Shown: positions 334-44,065 of the stretch, in pieces
Layout of the letters: every line of letters starts with the position of its first letter
How positions within the stretch are numbered: the first letter of the stretch is position 1
Assembly (NCBI GenBank): GCA_026393835.1
Contig: JAPKZK010000138.1
Location: 1 to 64,000, forward strand
Direction of reading: 5' to 3'
DNA: 64,000 bases
From: Candidatus Aminicenantota bacterium
GTDB lineage: Bacteria; Acidobacteriota; Aminicenantia; UBA2199
Program-made: the position numbers and the translations under genes
Notes under the pieces: model-generated
What the model was told of the DNA's origin: nothing
Databases searched by the model: none
What the model saw: only the letters and a program-made list of their open reading frames with translations

Positions 334-3300
334 ATGAAGATGAACGACGATTTTTCAAGGCTGGAAACATTGATAGCACGCTGGGTGGTGGAGACGGGTC
401 TTCATGCTAAATCCGGTTCCACCGATAAAAACAAATACAGCGAATATATCGCGGCTCAACTCCTAAACGCCGCTTTTTCCTATCGACTGGAAGTCCTACC
501 CCAAAATCACCCCGCCGTAGACCTGGGTGACCCAGTCAATGGTATTGCCTTTTCAATTACCTCCCGCACCGATGCGGATAAAATCCGCTCCGACCTACAA
601 ACCTTTCATGATCACAACTTGATAGCGGAATATCCCCAGGGCATCCGTTTCCTCCTGTTAGTGGACAAAAAGGAAGATTGGAGTACGAAAATAAAAGACT
701 CTTTCACCGAAATCCTGGCAGGATTCGATGCGGATGAGCATATTTTTACTTTAGCCAATGTGGTGGAGCGGTTGAAGAGAAATTACCCCGCAAATCCCGG
801 GCCATTCCACGATATCCTGGCCTTCCTGGAATGGCAATTCGGGGAAAAGGCGGGTGAGCCGCCCCTGCCTTTCCTCAGGGAAATGCTGCTCCATGGTTCC
901 CGGTCGTATCACCGGGCTTTAACCGGGGAAAACGGGAGGTTCCGCAATCTACACATCGAAGACCTCCTCCTCTCCCGGTCGGAAAGCGAATCCCGGTGGG
1001 TCCCGCAGCCGGTTTCCCTGGAAGGGGATAATAACGGCTGCCAGACCAATGAGACGGTCATTACCATGCTGCCGCGTTTGTGGAACCGACCGGTGGAACA
1101 TGCGGTAATCGTAGGAGAAGGCGGCATGGGCAAAACCGTTTCGCTGGTCCGGTTGTGGGAAACCTATTTAAACCGGGCCGCCCCCGGTACGGATGAGCCA
1201 ATCCCGGTATTTATCGCCCTGCATGAATTCAATAACACCGATACCTCCAGGGATTTTATTCGGTCGCGGATAGCTGATAGTTATCTTGATGATGATCGGT
1301 TGCGGAAGGGATTGAAGAAGCTATTTAAAACCAGGGGGCAGAGGTCGGACGGGATAACGTTTCCAAATGTGGTTCTACTGCTGGACGGGTTTAACGAGAT
1401 AACGGTAGAGAAACGGGAATTACTGTTGGAATTAAATCGCATGGTGGAAGAATGTCAGGGTGTCCAGGTACTTCTCACCAGCCGGTACGATATGCGGGGG
1501 AATTTCAACTGGGGACATTGGAACCTGGTCAAGCTCAACGAACTGGAAGAGGAAAATGCAGTGGAATATTTGCGGGGTAAGGGCCTGGCAATGCCGGAAC
1601 AAGAGCGGCTGCGGAAGTTGCTCTGTAATCCCATGATGCTGACGTTATACGCGGTAACCTGCGAAGTGCAGGCCAATCACCGGGATAACCGGTACTGTCA
1701 TTTCAAGGAAACCGTGGATGCGCCCGGGGAATTGTTATGGAATTTTATGGAAGCCCAGGTGGCCCAACTCCCGGAAAGGGTAGGACCGGAGGAAGGTCGT
1801 GTGGTATATTATTGGTTTTTACTCAAATATATACTGCCGGGGCTGGGTTTTGAAATGGAGAAGGCGGGGTTATTTGTATTCAGTCATGCTCAATTCCTGG
1901 AGAGCCTGGATCGGTTGTGCCAGAGGTTTGCGCTGGAGGATTTTTTGACGGCCATTCCGTTGCTAAGTAAATATTTAGATATGCTGCTGGTGGGGGAGTG
2001 CGGCAATACACTGGCACGGCACAAGAGGGCCGGTTTACTGCGGGATATTTTTTGTAATGAGTTGCATATGTTAGTGGAAGAGGGGCAGTCGCTACGATTC
2101 CTGCACCAGGATTTCCGTGATTTTTTTGCCGCCATGCATGTATTGAACGAGGTGGAGATCGGTTTGAGTAAGGGAGAGATTCCCGGGATATTGAAGGAAC
2201 GCATCCTGGATTATTTCGTACGTCGGTTGGTGGGTGAAATCGAAGGGGAGCACCGCTGTAAACCTTACCTGGTGGAAGGGCAGGGATGGAATATCGATAT
2301 AAATACGGAAAACCGGTTACATCGGGTGGTGGATTTATGCCGCGGTAAATTTAATAACCAGGAACAATTATCAAAAGTTTTTGGGAGTGCAGAACCCTTT
2401 TTTCAAAAAGGGTTTTGCCAGCAGGAGGCAGAAGTTAGTGTGGGCTATACGGTATGGAACATTATTACTATTTGGAAAGAGGTGCGGAGGGAGTTAAGTG
2501 GTGCAGATTTATCCAATCTTGATTTATCGGGAATATCCTTGAATGGAGTGACGTGCAGCCGGTATTATGAATTCGGCGACCGGGATTTGGTGTACTTAGC
2601 AGCAATATTTGATGGGTCAAGGGTCCATGGAAACAATCTTTTCGCCCAAGGGCATTCGTCTTGGGTTAATAGTGCAGTGTACAGCCCGGATGGTTCAAAA
2701 ATCCTTTCGGCTTCGGAGGATTATACCATCAAAGGGTGGGACGCGGGAACAGGCGAATGTGTAAAAACCCTTTCCGGGCATACGTGGGGAGTTAAAAGTG
2801 CGGTTTACAGCGCTGATGGGAAAAAAATCCTTTCCGCTTCTAATGATAGGACGATCAAAGAGTGGAATGCGGGAACTGCTGAATGCTTAAAAACCCTGGT
2901 CGGGCATACGGATAGAGTTAACTGCATGGTGTACAGCGCCGATGGGGAAAAAATTCTTTCTGGGTCTCATGATAAAACCATCAAAGAGTGGTGTGCGGGT
3001 ACAGGCGAATGCTTGAAAACCCTGGTTGGGCATACAGATGTAGTATGGATGGCGTTGTACAGCGCTGATGGGAAAAAAATTCTTTCCGCTTCGGAGGATT
3101 ACACCATCAAAGAATGGGACGCGGGAACGGGCGAATGCTTGAAAACCCTGGTCGGGCATACGTGGGGAGTTGAAAGTGCGGTGTACAGCGTCGATGGGAA
3201 AAAAATCCTTTCTGGGTCTCATGATAAAACCATCAAAGAGTGGTGCGCGGGTACAGGCGAATGCGTGAAAACCCTGGCAGGGCATACGAATAGTGTAAAC

Positions 3301-4398
3301 AGTGCGGTTTACAGCGGGGATGGGAAAAAAATTCTTTCCGCTTCGGATGATAACACCATAAAAGAATGGGATGCGGATATAGGTGTTTGTTTGAAAACAA
3401 TAACCGGGCATACGAATTGGGTAACCAGCGCAGTGTACAGCCCGGATGGGAAAAAAATTCTTTCCACTTCCAAGGATCATACCATCAAAGAGTGGGACGC
3501 AGGAACGAGCGAATGCTTGAAAACTCTGGCCGGGAATATCAGTTCAGTTACCTACGCGGTGGTCAGTCCGGATGAGAAAAAAATCATTTCCGATTCCCGG
3601 GATCAAATCATCAAAGAGTGGGACGCGCAAATGATCAAAGTGTTGAACGGTCTAACCCGTCATACGAATTGGGTTTACAGCGCGGTGTTTAGTCCAGATG
3701 GGGAAAAAATTCTATCTGCTTCTGGTGATAAAATCATTAGAGAGTGGGACATGGGAACTGGCGAATGCTTAAAAATCCTGGCCGGGCATACGAGAACTGT
3801 TAACAGGGCGGTGTACAGCGCTGATGGGAAAAAAATCCTATCCACTTCTGATGATCGAACCATCAAAGAGTGGGACGCGGGTACGGGCGAATGCTTGAAA
3901 ACCCTGGCCGGGCATACGGATGCAGTATGGATGGCATTGTACAGCGCCGATGGGAAAAGAATCCTATCCACTTCCGATGATTACATCATCAAAGAGTGGG
4001 ATGTGGGTTCGGGTGAATGCTTGAAAACCCTGGCCGGGCATACAGATGTAGTATGGATGGCGTTGTACAGCGCCGATGGGAAAAAAATCCTATCCACTTC
4101 TGATGATTATATCCTCAAAGAGTGGGATGCGGCCACCGGCCAATGCCTGAATACCTATGATGGAGATGATCCCAATATCCCCCGATTCACACCAGATGAA
4201 AAGAATATTGAATTAAGAACCGAAGGGAATAAAATCTATATCCCGGATGCCTCGGGCCAAAAGGAACGTGAGTTAATTAATGTGCCCGGACTCTTCATCC
4301 AGGGGTGTTCCTTTCAAAATCTGGAAAAAGGGAGCCAATGGAGCGAAGAGGGGCTGGCGATCTTGAAGCAGTACCATGCCGAGTGGAATGATGAATGA
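334..4398 (+). CDS. SMEK-NACHT-WD40 protein (NLR-like STAND NTPase)
   Basis: A 1354-residue protein. Residues about 1-150 resemble the SMEK domain (motif VDLGD then AFSITS), which occupies the N-terminal effector position of many bacterial STAND proteins. A NACHT NTPase follows, with Walker A GEGGMGKT at 261-268 and Walker B LLLDGFNE around 348-355. A short pentapeptide-like stretch (SGADLSNLDLSG, near 720-740) leads into at least 12 WD40 blades of exactly 42 residues (about 773-1277), with a degenerate blade behind them. The family is cytoplasmic; NACHT proteins with C-terminal repeats are known antiphage sensors in bacteria, so a sensor role for the propellers is inference. ATG 334 is chosen because the promoter ends just upstream; ATG 340 is an in-frame alternative. 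The gene stands alone, with an insertion sequence downstream in the opposite orientation. Confidence 0.85.
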   Translation: MKMNDDFSRLETLIARWVVETGLHAKSGSTDKNKYSEYIAAQLLNAAFSYRLEVLPQNHPAVDLGDPVNGIAFSITSRTDADKIRSDLQTFHDHNLIAEYPQGIRFLLLVDKKEDWSTKIKDSFTEILAGFDADEHIFTLANVVERLKRNYPANPGPFHDILAFLEWQFGEKAGEPPLPFLREMLLHGSRSYHRALTGENGRFRNLHIEDLLLSRSESESRWVPQPVSLEGDNNGCQTNETVITMLPRLWNRPVEHAVIVGEGGMGKTVSLVRLWETYLNRAAPGTDEPIPVFIALHEFNNTDTSRDFIRSRIADSYLDDDRLRKGLKKLFKTRGQRSDGITFPNVVLLLDGFNEITVEKRELLLELNRMVEECQGVQVLLTSRYDMRGNFNWGHWNLVKLNELEEENAVEYLRGKGLAMPEQERLRKLLCNPMMLTLYAVTCEVQANHRDNRYCHFKETVDAPGELLWNFMEAQVAQLPERVGPEEGRVVYYWFLLKYILPGLGFEMEKAGLFVFSHAQFLESLDRLCQRFALEDFLTAIPLLSKYLDMLLVGECGNTLARHKRAGLLRDIFCNELHMLVEEGQSLRFLHQDFRDFFAAMHVLNEVEIGLSKGEIPGILKERILDYFVRRLVGEIEGEHRCKPYLVEGQGWNIDINTENRLHRVVDLCRGKFNNQEQLSKVFGSAEPFFQKGFCQQEAEVSVGYTVWNIITIWKEVRRELSGADLSNLDLSGISLNGVTCSRYYEFGDRDLVYLAAIFDGSRVHGNNLFAQGHSSWVNSAVYSPDGSKILSASEDYTIKGWDAGTGECVKTLSGHTWGVKSAVYSADGKKILSASNDRTIKEWNAGTAECLKTLVGHTDRVNCMVYSADGEKILSGSHDKTIKEWCAGTGECLKTLVGHTDVVWMALYSADGKKILSASEDYTIKEWDAGTGECLKTLVGHTWGVESAVYSVDGKKILSGSHDKTIKEWCAGTGECVKTLAGHTNSVNSAVYSGDGKKILSASDDNTIKEWDADIGVCLKTITGHTNWVTSAVYSPDGKKILSTSKDHTIKEWDAGTSECLKTLAGNISSVTYAVVSPDEKKIISDSRDQIIKEWDAQMIKVLNGLTRHTNWVYSAVFSPDGEKILSASGDKIIREWDMGTGECLKILAGHTRTVNRAVYSADGKKILSTSDDRTIKEWDAGTGECLKTLAGHTDAVWMALYSADGKRILSTSDDYIIKEWDVGSGECLKTLAGHTDVVWMALYSADGKKILSTSDDYILKEWDAATGQCLNTYDGDDPNIPRFTPDEKNIELRTEGNKIYIPDASGQKERELINVPGLFIQGCSFQNLEKGSQWSEEGLAILKQYHAEWNDE
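2653..4164 (+). repeat. Twelve tandem 126-bp WD40-coding repeats
   Basis: Twelve consecutive units of exactly 126 bp (42 codons) encode WD40 blades of the form HT-x2-V-x3-YS-x-DGKKILS. Several units share long identical stretches at DNA level, for example the segments around 2980, 3230 and 3880, suggesting recent duplication or gene conversion between blades. Position 8 (about 3535-3660) is the most diverged. Confidence 0.85.
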
Positions 4399-9042: not shown

Positions 9043-9609
9043 ATACGGCGCGAGGAAATGGCTATGTAACACGCGTAAATGTGCATGCGGCACGCAAAAG
9101 CATGCATGCGGCGCGCGGGAATGTGCATGCGGCTATCGGTGATGGGCAAGCAGCTATAGGAAATGGCCATGGAGCTATCGGAAACTTTCATGCAGCTATT
9201 ATAAATGGGCATGCCGCGCGCGAAAATGTTTATGCAGCTATCGGTGATGTGTGAGCAGCTACCGGAAACGGCCATGGAGCTATCGGAAACTTTCATGCAG
9301 CTATTATAAATGGGCATGCCGCGCGCGGAAATGTTTATGCGGCTACAAGAGATGGCCGCGCAGCTATCGGAAATGTTCAAGTAGCTATCATGAATGGGCA
9401 TTTAGCTATGGTGGATAGCCATGCGGCTATTTGAAATGTTCATGCAACTATCAAGAATATCCATGTAGCTATCGAGAATGTTTATGCAGCTATGCAAGAT
9501 GGCCATGCAGCTATCGTGAATATTCATGCAACCATTAAAGATATACATGCAGCCATTCACGACGTGCATGCGGCTAGCGAAAACGTGCATTCGGCAAAAA
9601 ATATTTAAT
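9043..9609. repeat. 21-nt tandem array, 26 full units plus a partial, no indels
   Basis: Units begin every 21 nt exactly from 9043 to 9589, usually with ATGC(A/G)GC followed by TATCGG-like and AAATG-like segments. The units differ greatly in sequence (many share only 10-14 bases), yet not one insertion or deletion breaks the register over 546 bp. A 5-unit segment starting at 9169 is duplicated at 9274 (105 bp apart). On the plus strand the heptad GNVHAAI recurs, interrupted by two TGA codons; on the minus strand the heptad MAISDSC recurs, interrupted by one TAA. No ribosome site or start supports translation on either strand. Confidence 0.85.
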
Positions 9610-35319: not shown

Positions 35320-36690
35320 ATGAAACTACGGATTGACAATCTCGGTTATATTCAAAGAGCCGACATATGCACGAGACCTTTGACCATCGTGTGCGGGAAA
35401 AATAATACGGGGAAGACATATTTGAGTTATACCATCTATGGTTTGTTGAGTTTCATGCAGCAAGCGCGCCCCTTCCAGGTTGATCATGACGTACTCGACA
35501 ATCTTAGTCAGAAAGGCGCCGCCAGGATCGACCTCGCGAAGTATACAGACCAGAAGCAGTTGATGTATGTATTTCAAAATATATCCGAACAATTCTCACA
35601 GCATCTGGATCGGGTTTTCAGCAGTCCGGAGGGGGAATTTGCCACAGCAAAAGTAACCCTTGATCCGAATGGTTTGATTCCAGACCTGTCGCCTTCTATA
35701 AAAAATGTATTCCATGTAGGTAAAAGGAATTCGGTTACCGTCAATAAGCTGAGGGACTCAACTATTGTAGAGGTGGCTCTTTTGAACGAAGAGAACGCAC
35801 CGTCGCCGCCGGAACATATTTTAAGCGCGGTTCTTAATCGAGTCTTGTGTGAGATGATAGTCGGAAGCTACTTTAAAAATCCGTTTGTTATCACATCAGA
35901 ACGTACGGGTATCCAGCTTTTCAGCAAGGAACTCGATATCCGGAAGAATGAGGTGCTTGACACCCTGGTTGAGGGTAAAGGAAAAATAGCGGATCCGTTC
36001 GACCTCATAGACAAATTCATCTCTCGTTATCCAATCGCGATAAAGGACAACATCGATTACATTCGAGACCATGAGCGGCTGCGTAAGACGAACAGCTTTC
36101 TTCTCGGTACCCCGGGCCAGGAGGATTCACTGTTCGAGGTATGGGGTGAAATCATGGGGGGCAAACTAAATGTTATCGCGAATCAATTGGTATTTGTGCC
36201 CAGGGAGCGTGTAAACCGGAAGCAAGTGCACGTCCCCATTTATCTCGGTTCATCGGCAATCAAGTCCCAGGTCTCGCTTGATCTTTACCTGCGGCACAAC
36301 GCCCAACCGGACGATATGCTTATGATCGACGAACCTGAACTGAACCTGCATCCCGACAATCAGCGCCTTATGGCCCGCCTGCTGGCCCGCCTGGTAAATA
36401 AGGGAATCAACGTCTTCATCACAACGCACAGCGATTATATCTTAAAGGAGATCAATAACCTGCTTCTCCTGGCAAATCAATTCCCCACGAGGAAAGCCCT
36501 CATGCGGAAATATGGATATACTGAAGATGAGGTATTGAAGAATGGCTCAACCGGTGTTTACGTCATGCGCGATCACAAAGCCCAATTAGTCGAAATTACC
36601 AGCACAGGTATGGAATTATCTGTCTTTGATGAAATTATCATCAACCAGAATGGCGCCGCGGACGAAATCTATTATGGGCAAAAGGAGTAG
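35320..36690 (+). CDS. AAA-family (OLD/AAA_15-like) ATPase, putative defence gene
   Basis: A 456-residue SMC/ABC-like ATPase. Walker A GKNNTGKT at 26-33, Walker B MLMIDEPELNLHPDNQR with D337-E338, H-loop FITTHSDYIL. No TOPRIM domain follows, so it is a stand-alone ATPase of the type that is usually paired with an effector gene in defence systems. The next open frame begins 2 nt behind its stop with its own AGGAG but ends after 32 codons, so the partner has been lost. It resembles in layout the ATPase at 42692-44002. Confidence 0.8.
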   Translation: MKLRIDNLGYIQRADICTRPLTIVCGKNNTGKTYLSYTIYGLLSFMQQARPFQVDHDVLDNLSQKGAARIDLAKYTDQKQLMYVFQNISEQFSQHLDRVFSSPEGEFATAKVTLDPNGLIPDLSPSIKNVFHVGKRNSVTVNKLRDSTIVEVALLNEENAPSPPEHILSAVLNRVLCEMIVGSYFKNPFVITSERTGIQLFSKELDIRKNEVLDTLVEGKGKIADPFDLIDKFISRYPIAIKDNIDYIRDHERLRKTNSFLLGTPGQEDSLFEVWGEIMGGKLNVIANQLVFVPRERVNRKQVHVPIYLGSSAIKSQVSLDLYLRHNAQPDDMLMIDEPELNLHPDNQRLMARLLARLVNKGINVFITTHSDYILKEINNLLLLANQFPTRKALMRKYGYTEDEVLKNGSTGVYVMRDHKAQLVEITSTGMELSVFDEIIINQNGAADEIYYGQKE

Positions 36691-36791: not shown

Positions 36792-36910
36792 CGAGGAAGA
36801 GTAAAATATCCCCTTGCTTTCGTTTCCCAGTTCCGGTATAGGTGACGCTTAAATTCAAAACGCCGGTTGACCGGCAAAGAAAGTGAATACCGACCGCCGG
36901 GGCCCCGGGC
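36792..36910. other. Spacer before the 20/21-nt array
   Basis: No gene seen; includes a short palindrome CGCCGGTTGACCGGC near 36861. Confidence 0.3.
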
Positions 36911-37342
36911 GCCGATTTTGGTGTTCAAAGCGCCGATTTGGCGTTAAAAGCCCTGAATTGGGGCCTGGGACTGCGAAACGGCGCTCGAAGCTTCATCATT
37001 TTTAAAAAAAACTCCGATATCGATGCTCCAAGCACCGGTATCGGTGCAAAAAGCTCGGAATCGGGATTTTTAGCTCTAAAATATCGGAGTTAAAAGCCCT
37101 AAATTGGAGTTCCGAACTCCGATAACGGAGTAAAAAGCGCCGATTTGGAGTTCCGAACACCGATGCCGGAGTAAAAAGCACCGATGTTCAAGCTTTGAGC
37201 GCTGATTTGGAGTTAAAAGCGCCGAATTGGAGTTCCGAACACCGATAACGGAGCAAAAAACGCCAAATCGGAGCTTCGAACACTGATTCGGAGGTAAAAG
37301 CCCCTATTTGGCGCTCCGGGCACCGATTTCGATATCTTCCCC
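36911..37342. repeat. Degenerate 20/21-nt tandem array with two alternating unit types
   Basis: About 21 units of 20-21 nt (one is 22), each usually beginning CCGAT or a close variant. From about 37098 on, units alternate: type A continues TTGGAGTTCCGAAC, type B continues AACGGAGTAAAAAGC, giving a higher-order period near 41 bp. Unrelated in sequence to the array at 9043 but similar in period. No reading frame is maintained because unit length varies. Confidence 0.75.
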
Positions 37343-37423
37343 CGTCCTGTCCCTTTTTTCCCCTACCCCCTAGTTTCTCCGCTCTTCCTTTTTTCCCACC
37401 CCCTGTCCGTTATTCTCTTCATT

Positions 37424-37481
37424 TCAATTCGTCAAACTCGAACATGGTCACGGTTCCGTTTAAGTTGGCGGAAAATATAGG
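37424..37481 (-). pseudogene. 3' end remnant of a second WD40 gene
   Basis: Read on the minus strand this encodes IFSANLNGTVTMFEFDELK and a TGA stop, nearly the same as the last residues VFTANRNGTVTVFEFDELK of the cyclase-NACHT-WD40 protein ending at 37913. The similarity spans about 55 bp and then breaks off. It is the tail of a deleted paralogue. Confidence 0.75.
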
Positions 37482-37912: not shown

Positions 37913-40900
37913 TCACTTCAATTCATCGAACTCGAACACGGTCACGGTTCCGTTACGGTTAGCTGTAAAAACTTTCCAGGGGGAGGTGGGTGATAAAGTA
38001 ATATAAGCAGGTACCCATGGGAGTTTCAGCGTTTTATTGCACTGTCCGGTTCCTAAATCCCAGATCTTTACTGCTTTATCATATCCACAGGATACCATAC
38101 GACTAGCATCAAGAGAAACGGCGCAACTATATACAGGCCCTAGATGCCCCTTAAAAGACCGGATATCGCTACCGCTTCCCACTTCCCAAAGTTTCAAAGT
38201 ATGATCCGCAGAGCCAGACACAATCCTATCTCCACCTGGTAAAAATTCACAACATGTAACATATCCATTATGACCGTGAAAAGTTCGTATTTCTTTTCCG
38301 CTATCCACGTTCCACAGTTTGATGGTATTATCCCAAGAGCCAGATAATACACGTTCTCCATTGGGCGAAAATGAACAGCTTACAACATTTGCCTTATGCC
38401 GCGTAAAGGCACGAATTTGTCTGCCGGTAGCTACATCCCAAAGTAATAAGTTAGTATCTACACTACCAGACACCACTCGCCCTCCGTCCGATGAAAACGC
38501 TAGGCTTATAACACATTTCTCATGACCATTAAAGGAACGGATTTCTTTCCCGGTCATTACATCCCAAAGCTTTATAGTATTATCCCACGAGCTTGATACT
38601 ATACGCTCTCCATCTGGGGAAAAAGCGCAACTATATACATCCGCCTGATGACCAATGAAGGAGCGTATTTCCATACCGCTCTCAATGTCCCATAATTTCA
38701 AAATATGATCATATCCTGCGGATAACAGCCACTTCCCATCTGGAGAAACCGCGCATCTATATACGTCCCCCTGATGACCGTTTAAGGTTTGGAATTCTTT
38801 CCCACTTTTCACATCCCACAGTTTTAATGTATGATCAATTGAGCCAGATGCCACACAGCCCCCGCCCGGCGAAAATGCGCAGCTATAGACAGGACCTTGA
38901 TGTCCGGTAAAAACTCGAATTTCTTTTCCGCTTACTGCGTCCCACAGTTTTAAGGTGTTATCTCTTGACGATGATACCACTAATTTCCCGTCCAGCGAAA
39001 AGGCGCAACATGTCACAGCGCTTTTATGCCCAAAATAGGAGTGGATTTCTCTTCCATTCTTTAGATCCCACAGCATTAAGGTACTATCTTCAGATGCTGA
39101 GAGAATAGTTTTCCCATCCGGTGAAAATGTACAATTTGTAACACTTTTTTTATGCCCAATAAAATTTAGGATTTCTCGGCCGGTCTTCACATCCCACAGT
39201 TTTATTGTATTATCGGATGAGCCAGACACAATCATCTGTCCATCAGGAGAAAATGCGCAGCTTGTAACATATCCCCTATGTCCTGAAAATTCACGAATTT
39301 TCCTTCCACTTTCAACATCCCACAAATTTATTTGGAAAGAATCAGATGTTGAGACTACCATCAGGCCATTCGGTGAAAACGCGCAACTGGAGATATGAAA
39401 TTGATCCCTGGCAAAAGAGTGGATTTCTTTATCGCATCCCACATCCCACAACCTTAATGTATTATCCCATGAGCCAGATACAACCTTCTTTCCATCCGCT
39501 GAAAAGGCGCAACATGTGACCTTGTCATTATGACCATGAAAAGATCGGATTTCTCTGCCGCTCTTTTGGTCCCAAAGCTTTAAGGAGCCATCCTCTGATG
39601 CAGACAGTACCAAATTCCCATTCGGTGAAAAGACACATCCCAGTACATCACTGGAATGCCTCAGGTTCGGACTACCGAAAAAACCAACCAATTCTTTACC
39701 AGTCAATTCCCGGTAATAGCTGAAGTTCTTATCCTCGGGGTGATATCGGAAAGTGTCCAGTTGTAGTACATTGTCATATAACTGCGTTTCTTTTTTTTGC
39801 TTTGCTTCCCATTTTTCTACCAACTCTTTTTGCGCCAGTTTCAACAGCAATTGTCTTCTCAACTCCACCAGTTCCGAGTCTCCCTTATCGAATCCGTTAT
39901 AATCTAAAAATTCCTCCAGGAAGGTAGGCCGACTCAATTTCAACACACTCTCAAACTGCCGGGAATTCTCTTTTAATTTTTCTTTATCTTCGGTCAATAG
40001 AGTATCTTTCATGTATAGGTAAACCCACTTCACTGCCAACCGGTTCCGTTCCACAATATCATCGATGGTTTTCCGCATGCTTTTTATTCGGATAACGTTA
40101 TAGGTTTTTTGCAGCAGCCACTCCACTTCGGAAAGACACTTCACCCCCAATCGGTAAACACGCTCCGGGTAAGGAACTTCCCTAACCAGGTCTCCCGTAT
40201 GCATTAATACATCGTAACCTGCCGGTAGGCTGCTGCCCGCGGCAATGGGAACTGTTTCCAATTCCAAAAAGTTTTCTCTTCCGACGCACTGCCGAACCAG
40301 AGACGAAAAACTGGTGGCGTCCTTTTTCGCTTTACCCACTATATAATAAGCGGCCAGGAACTCCATGACGGTTGAATGAAGGAACACATACTTCCCGGCA
40401 CCAGCCTGCAGGAGCAAATGATCCCGGTGAAACCGTTCCCTCCATTGCGCCGCCATTATGTCCGCGGCATTATCATCATATTGATAAGACATCCGCTCTT
40501 TGATAAACGATGTAAAATACGCATTCAACACCTCTTCGGCCACGGAACGTTGAACGATTCCGTCCACGTCTTCATAAAATAACTTGAAACAAAGGGATGC
40601 CAGGGCGTCACAAAGAATTTCCGTCTCTGTATGTTTATCGAAGAAATCAGGGGCCTTGATCTCCTGAAAAAATAATTCCATATTTTTGTACGGGAACAGC
40701 CCGGTTTTGATGTTTTCCCAGGCTTTCAGCAGGATGAATTTTATCAAAAGATCGTACATGGGGAAGCGGTGGTCGAATTTTTCATAGGCCTGGAAATAAG
40801 CGGTCACCAGCAGGGCGGTAATGGGGGTGGCTGCCATTTTGACAACCACTTCCTCTTGCCACAATGCTTCGCTAAATTTTTTATAGATGCTCGAATCTTC

Positions 40901-42358
40901 TTTCAGTAAATTCCTGGCCACAGCCCGCACCTGTTCCATATTCAAAGATAATACTTTAAATAGGGGGATGTTGCACCGTTTGATATCCTGGGCTAGGTGG
41001 ATGCTTTCAGAAGGTCGCGACGTTAGATACAGGCGGTTTTGCGATGCACGCCTGTAAAGGGTCATGAATACATCTTTCATTTTTTCCCGCGTGGGGATGT
41101 CCGCGGCTTCGTCCAGCGCATCCACCAGCAGCGTGACCCTGTTTTCTTGAAACGCCTGCTTTACCCGTTTAGTGGATTCCCTGAACTCAACTAACTGATC
41201 TGGCGTCAGCGCGTCTATTGTTTTTCCGAAAAGACACACCCAGGTCATAAAATCCAGGGCATCCTCTCCGCTTATATCACTTGTGGTTTCCGGGCCTTGA
41301 TACTGTTTATACCATGTGTCGAATAAAGGGGCATTTCCACAGGGCACAAAAAGTATCACCTGCTTTTTCCCTTCCTCTTGCATTTCATTCTTTTTAAATT
41401 CTTTATATGCTATATTGCGGAGGATGGTGGTTTTGCCGGCACCGGGCAGGCCCATGATTATTCCTGTTCGGAATTTTTCATATAATGTAGGAACATCAAT
41501 GTCGTTAAGTTTTGACTGGCGGATAAATTCCTGTTCCATATCCAACTCATGGAACGGCCATTCCCCTTTTCCCACATGCCGCACTTTTTTAAATCCTCTC
41601 TTTTCTATATTGTCTTCCCTTTCTTCCGGCGGGTATTCATCGAATTTCTTTAGAAACTGGTCATCATCGCATACGAGGGAGAGGTTGATAAAATTTTTCT
41701 CCATGGGAACCGGTGGGTAAATATTGCCGAAAACCGGGATATATTGAACCTCATTTTCCAATTGGTTTAAGCGAGGTTCCAGAAGGTTGGAAGCTATTTC
41801 TTGCTCCTTTACGATACGCAATTTATAAACCATAGGCTCCCACTCCCGATTGTCGAATCCTTTTAGAGGTTCACGCAAATCCATACGAAAAACCTCCAAG
41901 CGCTTTTCGGTCAAAAGGCTTTTAATGCCTTCGTAGAGTGAAGGGGTAACCACCAATTCCCATGTTTGGGCCTGCTTTTCCAAGCGAAATAGAATAATAC
42001 CTTCGGGGCAGACCAAGTCTACCGGTCGGCCATTTTCTATTTTAAACTGGAAAAAACCGCTGTGGGCCACCATGCGGAACCTGGATATAAAACCGTATTT
42101 ATCTTCCGGTTTATCCCGATGGAATAGGTCCAGCATGATATCCAGCAGCCCTTCCACGTCGTAGCCAAACAGCAGTGCGGCGTCGCCGATGGACTTAATA
42201 ACCTGAAATCCATATTTCATGGAAATCCCCGTTACCTTTTCCTGGAAATAATCGGTATATTTTGCTGTGTACTTTTTTCCCAATTTCGTGGCCTGGCCGG
42301 TGAAATTCACGATGTCTACCATTGCCAGTATGCCGTGTAATGTTTTATGTTCCGCCAT
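37913..42358 (-). CDS. Class III cyclase-homology / NACHT / WD40 protein
   Basis: A 1481-residue protein of three parts. Residues 8-150 form a class III nucleotidyl-cyclase homology domain with both metal Asp residues, D15 (MVDIVNFT) and D59 (IKSIGDAAL), and Lys55 at the purine-recognition position; Arg125 is present but the catalytic Asn expected four residues before it is Ile121. Residues about 295-560 are a NACHT NTPase (Walker A GLPGAGKTT at 303-311, Walker B LLVDALDEA with D413/E417), followed by a helical region. Residues about 895-1481 are 14 WD40 blades, enough for two seven-bladed propellers. No membrane segment. It is the last gene of a three-gene operon with an AAA ATPase and a small protein. 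A role in signalling or phage defence is inference from domain type. Confidence 0.9.
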   Translation of the reverse strand: MAEHKTLHGILAMVDIVNFTGQATKLGKKYTAKYTDYFQEKVTGISMKYGFQVIKSIGDAALLFGYDVEGLLDIMLDLFHRDKPEDKYGFISRFRMVAHSGFFQFKIENGRPVDLVCPEGIILFRLEKQAQTWELVVTPSLYEGIKSLLTEKRLEVFRMDLREPLKGFDNREWEPMVYKLRIVKEQEIASNLLEPRLNQLENEVQYIPVFGNIYPPVPMEKNFINLSLVCDDDQFLKKFDEYPPEEREDNIEKRGFKKVRHVGKGEWPFHELDMEQEFIRQSKLNDIDVPTLYEKFRTGIIMGLPGAGKTTILRNIAYKEFKKNEMQEEGKKQVILFVPCGNAPLFDTWYKQYQGPETTSDISGEDALDFMTWVCLFGKTIDALTPDQLVEFRESTKRVKQAFQENRVTLLVDALDEAADIPTREKMKDVFMTLYRRASQNRLYLTSRPSESIHLAQDIKRCNIPLFKVLSLNMEQVRAVARNLLKEDSSIYKKFSEALWQEEVVVKMAATPITALLVTAYFQAYEKFDHRFPMYDLLIKFILLKAWENIKTGLFPYKNMELFFQEIKAPDFFDKHTETEILCDALASLCFKLFYEDVDGIVQRSVAEEVLNAYFTSFIKERMSYQYDDNAADIMAAQWRERFHRDHLLLQAGAGKYVFLHSTVMEFLAAYYIVGKAKKDATSFSSLVRQCVGRENFLELETVPIAAGSSLPAGYDVLMHTGDLVREVPYPERVYRLGVKCLSEVEWLLQKTYNVIRIKSMRKTIDDIVERNRLAVKWVYLYMKDTLLTEDKEKLKENSRQFESVLKLSRPTFLEEFLDYNGFDKGDSELVELRRQLLLKLAQKELVEKWEAKQKKETQLYDNVLQLDTFRYHPEDKNFSYYRELTGKELVGFFGSPNLRHSSDVLGCVFSPNGNLVLSASEDGSLKLWDQKSGREIRSFHGHNDKVTCCAFSADGKKVVSGSWDNTLRLWDVGCDKEIHSFARDQFHISSCAFSPNGLMVVSTSDSFQINLWDVESGRKIREFSGHRGYVTSCAFSPDGQMIVSGSSDNTIKLWDVKTGREILNFIGHKKSVTNCTFSPDGKTILSASEDSTLMLWDLKNGREIHSYFGHKSAVTCCAFSLDGKLVVSSSRDNTLKLWDAVSGKEIRVFTGHQGPVYSCAFSPGGGCVASGSIDHTLKLWDVKSGKEFQTLNGHQGDVYRCAVSPDGKWLLSAGYDHILKLWDIESGMEIRSFIGHQADVYSCAFSPDGERIVSSSWDNTIKLWDVMTGKEIRSFNGHEKCVISLAFSSDGGRVVSGSVDTNLLLWDVATGRQIRAFTRHKANVVSCSFSPNGERVLSGSWDNTIKLWNVDSGKEIRTFHGHNGYVTCCEFLPGGDRIVSGSADHTLKLWEVGSGSDIRSFKGHLGPVYSCAVSLDASRMVSCGYDKAVKIWDLGTGQCNKTLKLPWVPAYITLSPTSPWKVFTANRNGTVTVFEFDELK

Positions 42359-42368
42359 TAGCTTTCTC

Positions 42369-42683
42369 CTACGCCGGTAGGAATTCCTCTTTCTTAAACC
42401 ACTTTTTAAAATTCGCGGGCGAATAGATTTTTATTTCTTTAAAGAATTTATTCTTGTAAATACCCAACCCTAACCTAACCGAAACTGACCGGACATGCGT
42501 TTTATATCTTTTTCCCTTCTTGGAAGGGGTATCGTCATCAACAACATCCGCATCGATCGAGGGATTCTTTTTATCATTGTATACCAGGACAAAGGACTTA
42601 TCCAGGTTAATGTTACCGATGGTCTCCAAACAATCGCCGAAATTTTTGTAAATTATCTCTTTAACTCCGGTTACATCGATCAT
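42369..42683 (-). CDS. Small protein between the ATPase and the cyclase-NACHT gene
   Basis: A 104-residue soluble, charged protein I do not recognise; notable is an acidic patch DADVVDDDTPSKKGKRYKTH and a hydrophobic-basic ending NFKKWFKKEEFLPA. It sits 8 bp behind the ATPase stop and 10 bp before the cyclase-NACHT start, so it is clearly cotranscribed and probably works with both. Confidence 0.65.
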   Translation of the reverse strand: MIDVTGVKEIIYKNFGDCLETIGNINLDKSFVLVYNDKKNPSIDADVVDDDTPSKKGKRYKTHVRSVSVRLGLGIYKNKFFKEIKIYSPANFKKWFKKEEFLPA

Positions 42684-42691
42684 CAGCCGTC

Positions 42692-44002
42692 CTACTGGAG
42701 TAATTCCAATTCATCGAAAGGTTTCGATAATTTTTCAAATATCGGGGATGGGTCATGGGTAACGTCATATACCCGCGATACAAATGCGCCGTCTTTTTTA
42801 TCGGCCAGGTAAAAAGCGGCTGCGCCTTTCTCCAGGTTTTTGTCGCAATAAAGCTGCAGCGCTTCGATAAGATAAGGACTGTGGGAAGTTAATAAAATGG
42901 GATTCCCTTCCTTAACCAGTTTAACCAGCACTTCCGCAAACCGGGTTTGCCATTGTGGATGCATATGGGTTTCAGGCTCGTCGATGACCAGCAAACTTTT
43001 CCTGGAAATGAACCCGTTCAGCAGTAATATATTGATTGCCCCCATATACTTAATACCGGAAGCGATGGAAATTCCCTTAAACCTTTTATTCCCTTTTTCA
43101 AAGACAAAATCCCTTTCCTCCGGGGCATAATAAAAATCTCCCTGGATAATATGACGAATACGTTCGGGAATCTCCAGCGACGTCCTCCCGGTTTTCCGGT
43201 CCGTAAGTTTCATGATAAAGTCCTTCATATATTCGGGGGCATAGCCTTTTTCAAGGTAATCTACCTTTTTCCTGGTTTCAATGTCCATATCGAATTCATT
43301 TTTGGAGAAACGGAGCAGGTCGGCCAGGTTTAATAATACGGGGGACTCGATAAAGGTAGCGTCTTCATAATAAAATTCCCGGTCTAATCGAACCGTTATG
43401 GAACCGTTGCTCCCTGTTATCTCGAACACTGTCTTATTTCCTTCTTCACCGGTAATCGAATAGCCTTTATTTTCTGAGAATTTGTTGGCCACTTCCCCGT
43501 TGAACAGCGAGTTCATGTATTTTCCGAAAGACCGTTTAAATATCTCTTCCGGCGACGGCTTTTTATCGACGAATTCGATAACCTGGGCAGGGAAATTGGC
43601 AAAATTTATATCGATCCCGGAAACCGTCTTTATGACCTCAGCGACGCTTTTTAGTTTTTCATCGAGGGAGAGTCGGATTTTATCTTTATCCGGGGGAGTA
43701 TCCATCATTTTAAGGGCATCGTTTTTAAGTTCGAGAAATATAGCCCTCACGTCCGCAAGCGCGGGAGAGTTGCTGTATTTTCTTTTGAAATCGGAATAAT
43801 AGTCTTCGATAGTATCTTCGATATTTCTCATCCGGTAAACGAGGGCGTCTTTTTCATACCGGTTAAAAGTTTTGATAATGGAAAAAATGAGTTTACCGAT
43901 GGTGCTTTTTCCCGTATCGTTCTCACCGGCAATCACTGTCAGGCCATTCAAACGGATACCGGCTTCTTCTACCATTCCGGCATTCTTAAATGTTATAAGC
44001 AT
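42692..44002 (-). CDS. AAA_21/OLD-like ATPase, first gene of the putative defence operon
   Basis: A 436-residue ABC/SMC-like ATPase with Walker A GENDTGKST at 26-34, a Ser-Gly signature-like ASGIKYMGAINILLL, Walker B LLVIDEPETHMHPQWQ and H-loop ILLTSHSPYLI. No nuclease domain follows. Related proteins act as the sensor/ATPase component of several antiphage systems (OLD, AbiEii-like, PARIS-like ATPases). The gene has a near-consensus promoter and an AGAGGT site 7 nt before the ATG, and heads the operon ending in the cyclase-NACHT-WD40 gene. Confidence 0.85.
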   Translation of the reverse strand: MLITFKNAGMVEEAGIRLNGLTVIAGENDTGKSTIGKLIFSIIKTFNRYEKDALVYRMRNIEDTIEDYYSDFKRKYSNSPALADVRAIFLELKNDALKMMDTPPDKDKIRLSLDEKLKSVAEVIKTVSGIDINFANFPAQVIEFVDKKPSPEEIFKRSFGKYMNSLFNGEVANKFSENKGYSITGEEGNKTVFEITGSNGSITVRLDREFYYEDATFIESPVLLNLADLLRFSKNEFDMDIETRKKVDYLEKGYAPEYMKDFIMKLTDRKTGRTSLEIPERIRHIIQGDFYYAPEERDFVFEKGNKRFKGISIASGIKYMGAINILLLNGFISRKSLLVIDEPETHMHPQWQTRFAEVLVKLVKEGNPILLTSHSPYLIEALQLYCDKNLEKGAAAFYLADKKDGAFVSRVYDVTHDPSPIFEKLSKPFDELELLQ

Positions 44003-44036
44003 TTAAACCTCTATTGTCATTATATTTTCTGCCTTA

Positions 44037-44065
44037 ATCATAGAAGAAAAAATGATAAATGTCAA
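44037..44065 (-). promoter_or_regulatory. Promoter of the ATPase / cyclase-NACHT operon
   Basis: On the minus strand TTGACA (44065-44060), 17 nt, TATGAT (44042-44037). Predicted start near 44030; leader of 28 nt with a ribosome site. Confidence 0.65.

Follow-up and report, generated by a model that had tools for sequence, protein, structure and literature searches.

The antiphage pair WonAB, whose activity has been shown experimentally, requires both its ATPase and its nuclease (K71), and excess WonB blocks translation and is toxic, a toxicity that depends on WonA (PMC12137116). ATPases of the type described here have been grouped under the name OLD-ABC, with pairings to PD-(D/E)XK, HNH, and PIN nucleases (PMC12839542). 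Class III cyclases are found in Pycsar, where they use two conserved aspartates (PMC11224242), and cyclic nucleotide (cNMP) cyclase domains, some of them predicted to be inactive, occur in MoxR-vWA-centred STAND/vWA conflict systems (Kaur et al. 2020, PMC7159879). Here we analyze a 64,000-nucleotide stretch of a Candidatus Aminicenantota bacterium genome (contig JAPKZK010000138.1, positions 1 to 64,000; hereafter the window) that carries a three-gene operon: an OLD-ABC-type ATPase (gene 1), a 104-amino-acid (aa) protein that appears to be the remnant of a PD-(D/E)XK-type nuclease (gene 2), and an NLR-like protein joining a class III cyclase-fold domain to a NACHT NTPase and WD40 repeats (gene 3, the NLR gene).

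Judged by architecture and PADLOC matches, WonAB resembles two other loci of this genome, C161 and C110, in which a single-domain OLD-ABC ATPase is followed by a small PD-(D/E)XK protein; it differs from the window operon, where a third gene, cyclase-NACHT-WD40, follows the pair and the nuclease core is deleted. Bacterial NACHT antiphage proteins share with gene 3 an N-terminal effector or signalling domain, a central NACHT, and a C-terminal repeat sensor, but gene 3 has a class III cyclase N-terminus, two WD40 propellers, and an ATPase/nuclease operon, and its match to the known NACHT defence families is weak (EruA, 2e-5). The systems of Kaur et al. also place cNMP cyclase domains in multidomain NTPase conflict systems, whereas here the cyclase is fused directly to NACHT-WD40 and accompanied by an OLD-ABC pair. 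Pycsar cyclases have the same class III fold with conserved metal aspartates; in contrast, the gene 3 cyclase is fused to an NLR and lacks the catalytic Asn, and no adjoining cyclic-nucleotide effector was recognized. Each building block is known, and the operon that joins an OLD-ABC/nuclease pair to a class III cyclase-NACHT-WD40 NLR appears to be a new combination: a limited literature search found no such fusion in an operon with an OLD-ABC/nuclease pair.

Operon organization and recurrence within the genome

The three genes are open reading frames (ORFs) on the minus strand, all with start codons and separated by intergenic gaps of 8 and 10 bp. They lie downstream of one promoter, an arrangement that a first-pass annotation made from the sequence had described exactly. 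The features are:

44037..44065, minus strand: promoter TTGACA-N17-TATGAT (exact match; the leader ends in a GAGGT ribosome site)
42692..44002, minus strand: OLD-ABC-type ATPase, 436 aa (Pfam AAA_21/AAA_15; PADLOC matches; alignment with plasmid and phage homologues)
42369..42683, minus strand: predicted PD-(D/E)XK-type nuclease remnant, 104 aa (aligned to the intact 208- and 225-aa partners at C161 and C110; family profile)
42609..42614, minus strand: approximate junction of the internal deletion (profile match boundaries and alignments)
37913..42358, minus strand: cyclase-homology/NACHT/WD40 protein, 1481 aa (ORF and domain matches; paralogues and relatives)
41744..42358, minus strand: class III cyclase-fold domain, aa 1-205 (AlphaFold (AF2) model; Foldseek; alignment with the genome's own cyclase)
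41009..41464, minus strand: NACHT NTPase core, aa ~299-450 (Pfam NACHT, 2e-9; Walker A GLPGAGKTT, Walker B LLVDALDE)
37913..39646, minus strand: 14 WD40 blades (13 repeats, spaced exactly 42 aa apart, and a closing blade)

Paralogous loci keep the hexamers, spacing, and leader of the promoter, so the match is no coincidence. The ATPase genes at C161, C110, and C172 are preceded by a -35/-10 pair (TTGAC[A/T] and TA[T/A]GAT, 17-bp spacing) and by a leader homologous to that of the window operon; at C33 a similar promoter and leader stand immediately before the NLR gene.

All three-gene loci come from a single genome (a 212-contig assembly, 92% complete, with 6.6% contamination), and genome-wide counts derive from searches. 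The NLR gene is present at five loci: C71, which is the window locus, C161, C33, C209, and C172. At C161 the ATPase-nuclease-NLR operon is complete, with identities to the window of 52%, 31% (over the retained part), and 54%, respectively. This is the only other intact instance of the gene order, which is decayed or partial at C172, C110, and C33. At C172 the promoter persists together with ~45 aa from the start of the ATPase and what may be the tail of the nuclease; the NLR gene there is decayed, with part of the cyclase domain and the propellers gone. The ATPase and nuclease are retained at C110, where the nuclease frame ends in MAAFKR; this end may be a trace of the NLR start and is suggestive only. 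At C33 a solitary NLR gene stands immediately behind the operon leader, which is 77% identical to that of C161 over 100 bp, as though genes 1 and 2 had dropped out. At C209 the NLR gene is solitary, in the same gene surroundings as in the sister species G003. A genome scan with the single C161 ATPase gave no matches.

The middle gene and its intact relatives

The first-pass annotation had left the middle protein unrecognized; alignment with the C161 and C110 partners identifies it as what is left of a nuclease gene. The window protein consists of the N-terminal ~23 aa of a longer family protein joined to its C-terminal ~80 aa, and the family profile matches it in two pieces (model positions 1-25 and 133-203). 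Compared with the paralogues, which are 208 aa (C161) and 225 aa (C110) long and whose genes overlap the upstream ATPase gene by a few bases, ~115 residues are missing, the whole catalytic core included. Judged from these alignments, the core is deleted in frame.

Both intact proteins contain PDMI..(F/I)FVEFK(S/N)GRIEG. The D..EFKxG within it, which represents the D..ExK signature of PD-(D/E)XK nucleases, is absent from the window copy; of these three loci, only the sister loci C161 and C110 have the signature directly after the ATPase gene. By this motif and a weak profile match, not by structure, the intact middle protein is probably a PD-(D/E)XK-type nuclease. HEC-02B was the only PADLOC family that it touched, weakly and for the C110 copy only (1.1e-4); the window remnant did not match HEC-02B, and a profile of the middle protein had no match in the PDB structure database. 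By codon position, the remnant shows differences similar to those that separate the two intact copies in the same alignment columns, so that relaxed constraint is not visible by this weak test.

The OLD-ABC-type ATPase

The Walker A, Walker B, and H-switch motifs are intact in the ATPases of the window, C161, C110, and the plasmid and phage homologues described below; the window protein carries GENDTGKST, LLVIDEPETHMHP, and TSHSPY. It is 52% identical to the C161 paralogue and 48% identical to that of C110. Its best PADLOC profiles are HEC-02A (1.2e-28) and PD-T4-4_A (7.8e-28), with scores far below full-family matches and with no match for the window middle protein. Pfam found no TOPRIM domain, and the protein stops ~60 aa past the H-switch; the middle-protein family is not TOPRIM-like by motif. 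The earlier description of an OLD-like, ABC/SMC-like ATPase therefore holds for the broad OLD-ABC group and not for a TOPRIM nuclease. Lacking this domain, gene 1 was rejected as an OLD nuclease or a GajA (Gabija) protein, and a PARIS-type identity was rejected because an AriB-type TOPRIM partner is absent.

The window contains a second OLD-ABC ATPase without an intact nuclease partner (35320-36690, plus strand). This full-length PD-T4-4_A-like protein scores 432 bits in PADLOC, and downstream of it no PD-T4-4_B was recognizable, only a 32-aa ORF. Elsewhere in the genome (loci L087-L092), further OLD-ABC-like ATPases are each paired with a small gene, the partners including HNH-like and TOPRIM-like proteins as judged by eye.

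The cyclase/NACHT/WD40 protein

The domain anatomy proposed earlier for gene 3, a cyclase domain followed by NACHT and 14 WD40 blades, is borne out by profile, repeat, and model evidence. The blades probably form two seven-bladed propellers, and most NACHT Walker residues are invariant across paralogues. Pfam did not recognize a cyclase in the window N-terminal domain; its Guanylate_cyc family passes the cut-off on the same domain of the C209 paralogue. An AF2 model of window residues 1-205 (pLDDT 71.5, pTM 0.72) was compared with the PDB by Foldseek, and the top 50 matches were all class III cyclases (best E 6.7e-9). On this model a class III cyclase fold is well supported.

The metal, base-contact, and transition-state residues of class III cyclases have established roles. 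Aligned with the genome's own ordinary cyclase, the window domain keeps D15 and D59 (metal; both invariant in this alignment), K55 and D114 (base contact), and R125; Lys55 and Asp114 are not retained in every distant relative. Because the catalytic Asn is absent, the domain may or may not make a nucleotide. A relative of the NLR (L068 4983-9350), from the phylum of the Desulfobacterota relative HSG8, no longer has the metal aspartates (AELVDF, RRHSIAFFG), which suggests from its sequence a non-catalytic role for its cyclase domain. Among the copies read, no cyclic-nucleotide receptor gene (TIR or transmembrane effector) was recognized adjoining the NLR gene, and membership in Pycsar was rejected for want of an effector gene.

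The WD40 blades of the C161 copy (L010 12504-13946) share a mean DNA identity of 89%, compared with 60% in the window copy, a pattern that points to recent amplification or homogenization of the C161 sensor repeats. Another large protein in the window (334-4398) carries an array of 126-bp WD40-type repeats (2665-4155).

Occurrence outside this genome

Relatives of the NLR outside the genus were found in Desulfococcaceae HSG8 (Desulfobacterota) and G678, where the gene is solitary, and in Nitrospinota. In a Nitrospinota bin (L035 861-4713) an AAA_14-DUF4143 protein forms the front part of an in-frame fusion with the cyclase-NACHT protein, and a second Nitrospinota copy (L065) is fused behind a similar C-terminal segment. 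The sister species G002 has at least five NLR copies, with no ATPase or nuclease recognized adjoining them.

Searching with the C110 copy yielded ATPase homologues, 25-29% identical to the window ATPase, on an Acinetobacter plasmid, a 5.9-kb Klebsiella plasmid, and a phage scaffold, each followed by an overlapping ~200-aa D..EFKxG protein. These pairs, and that of G132, have no NLR neighbour. No relatives were returned by plasmid searches with the NLR and with the nuclease, by a phage search with the nuclease, or by three viral-contig scans with the NLR, ATPase, and nuclease. Phylum-wide negatives are weak, as only 2-4 candidates were scored per genome.

Sequences downstream of the NLR genes

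All four full-length NLR genes in the genome are followed downstream by orphan copies of the final ~45-85 bp of the gene, with ~77-94% DNA identity compared with ~65% for the rest of the gene. The window example is:

37419..37471, minus strand: orphan NLR 3' end, ~0.45 kb beyond the true stop codon of the gene (codes for ..ANLNGTVTMFEFDELK and a stop)

Others are located at L010 (14894-14987, 15898-15970, and 16078-16119) and at the C209 and C33 loci. The orphan ends bracket small cargo, for example a TumE-type toxin gene, a HEPN gene, and a VapC-like PIN pair, and it looks as though toxin-antitoxin cargo has repeatedly been inserted at the 3' end of the NLR gene. A diversity-generating retroelement was rejected as the source of the repeated tag because mismatches between gene ends and orphans are, by eye, not adenine-biased.

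Degenerate repeat arrays of ~21 bp (or 42 bp) recur in the genus near defence-type loci. They occur in the window (9116-9553 and, as a 41-bp array, 36909-37331), at L010 (16711-16992), and at L088, L089, L090, L092, L045, L047, and L050. Four of six short loci around other OLD-ABC-like ATPase genes have such an array, a count without a genome-wide frequency control. At L010, L047, and L045 the array is followed by a ~240-aa, helical-looking protein.

Discussion

We consider it probable (about 60%) that the operon is a lineage-specific defence composite, in which an abortive ATPase-nuclease module is coupled to an NLR and the window copy has lost its nuclease. Genes 1 and 2 would be a (former) OLD-ABC ATPase/PD-(D/E)XK pair of the WonAB, "OLD-ABC + novel REase", or HEC-02 kind: the ATPase dimer would sense infection and license a toxic nuclease, this arm acting as an abortive effector as in WonAB. 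Gene 3 would be an NLR-like STAND protein whose WD40 propellers sense, whose NACHT oligomerizes, and whose cyclase-fold domains pair into dimers. Class III cyclases are active as dimers, their catalytic site lying between the two subunits, and STAND NTPases act through ligand-driven oligomerization. Since a class III site forms only at the dimer interface, oligomerization would switch on nucleotide binding or synthesis. The intact C161 version has both arms; in the window the nuclease core is deleted in frame, so that any action would fall to the ATPase, the NLR, and a stub with no catalytic function.

The composite is supported by the recurrence at C161 with ~50% ATPase and NLR identity, the shared promoter, the WonAB-like pair, and the class III fold; the further OLD-ABC-like ATPase/small-gene pairs in the genome and the Nitrospinota NLR fused behind an AAA_14-DUF4143 module were also counted in its favour. 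Several observations weigh against it. The three-gene layout was found only in this genome, and the NLR copies of sister species, HSG8, and G678 occur without the ATPase and nuclease; C33, with the operon leader kept before a solitary NLR gene, indicates that the arms can exist apart. The nuclease assignment depends on a motif and weak profile matches (HEC-02B at 1e-4 for C110 only, none in the PDB). Gene 3 and all its relatives read have another residue at the transition-state Asn position (four residues before R125), and in G678, a distant relative, the metal aspartates of the cyclase are gone. On the sequences compared, the ATPase/nuclease-NLR coupling is lineage-specific, yet repeated in this genome and persisting through deep divergence. 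The gene order recurs intact at C161 and as relics, all of them seen inside this genome, and the NLR gene elsewhere is mostly solitary or, in Nitrospinota, fused.

The window locus might instead be a decaying copy, a former three-gene defence unit that lost its nuclease and now drifts like C172, C110, and C33. The in-frame gutting of the nuclease, the different ways in which other copies are broken, and the nearby PD-T4-4_A-like ATPase without a recognizable partner fit such drift, which we regard as possible but unlikely given three open, closely spaced ORFs with start codons, ATPase and NACHT motifs intact over 1900 codons, and codon-position differences that, in a weak test, resemble those of intact copies. 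Doubtful, too, is the proposal that the cyclase-NACHT-WD40 gene acts on its own in signalling or defence, with the ATPase/nuclease pair as a passenger inserted between its promoter and start in some copies. Most NLR homologues are indeed solitary, the pair is mobile and occurs without an NLR, and the solitary C33 gene has the same leader; however, every gene-1-type ATPase gene found in the genome has, or apparently once had, an NLR gene immediately after it (for C110 judged from a weak trace), and the ATPase and the NLR have diverged side by side, to ~50% identity, without separation.

A Pycsar-like scheme, in which a separate effector would respond to a cyclic nucleotide made by the N-terminal domain, seems improbable. 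The class III fold, both metal aspartates (Pycsar cyclases use two conserved aspartates; PMC11224242), Lys and Asp at the base-contact positions, and the Arg all speak for it, but every relative read has the transition-state Asn replaced, no TIR or membrane effector gene was recognized beside any copy read, and G678 has lost the metal aspartates.

Returning to the composite defence operon, the first-pass annotation had proposed a defence or signalling system in which a repeat-sensor NLR, helped by the ATPase, controls a nucleotide-generating or nucleotide-sensing domain. The defence reading gains from the WonAB-like OLD-ABC/PD-(D/E)XK pair and the NLR anatomy, but the gutted nuclease had been missed, and with the nuclease as the missing effector, help from the ATPase to a nucleotide-generating NLR is reduced to one option. 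The window copy may be an NLR unit that still carries an ATPase-stub left over, or it may be on its way out; the codon-position patterns do not distinguish the two. As a speculative and rather unlikely extension, WD40-triggered NACHT oligomers would build class III cyclase sites, and their product, or the nucleotide-bound assembly, would license the ATPase to unleash the nuclease; in window-type copies the nuclease would be dispensable and the ATPase-stub would serve the NLR.

The operon joins two building blocks of bacterial immunity, OLD-ABC/nuclease pairs and an NLR that begins with a class III cyclase-fold domain, that are not described together in the literature searched. As natural whole and part-deleted versions exist in one genome, NLR control of ATPase-nuclease effectors is directly testable. 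What is left of a gutted toxic effector can pass for a small "unrecognized" gene of a defence operon, and this matters for annotating defence systems as active.

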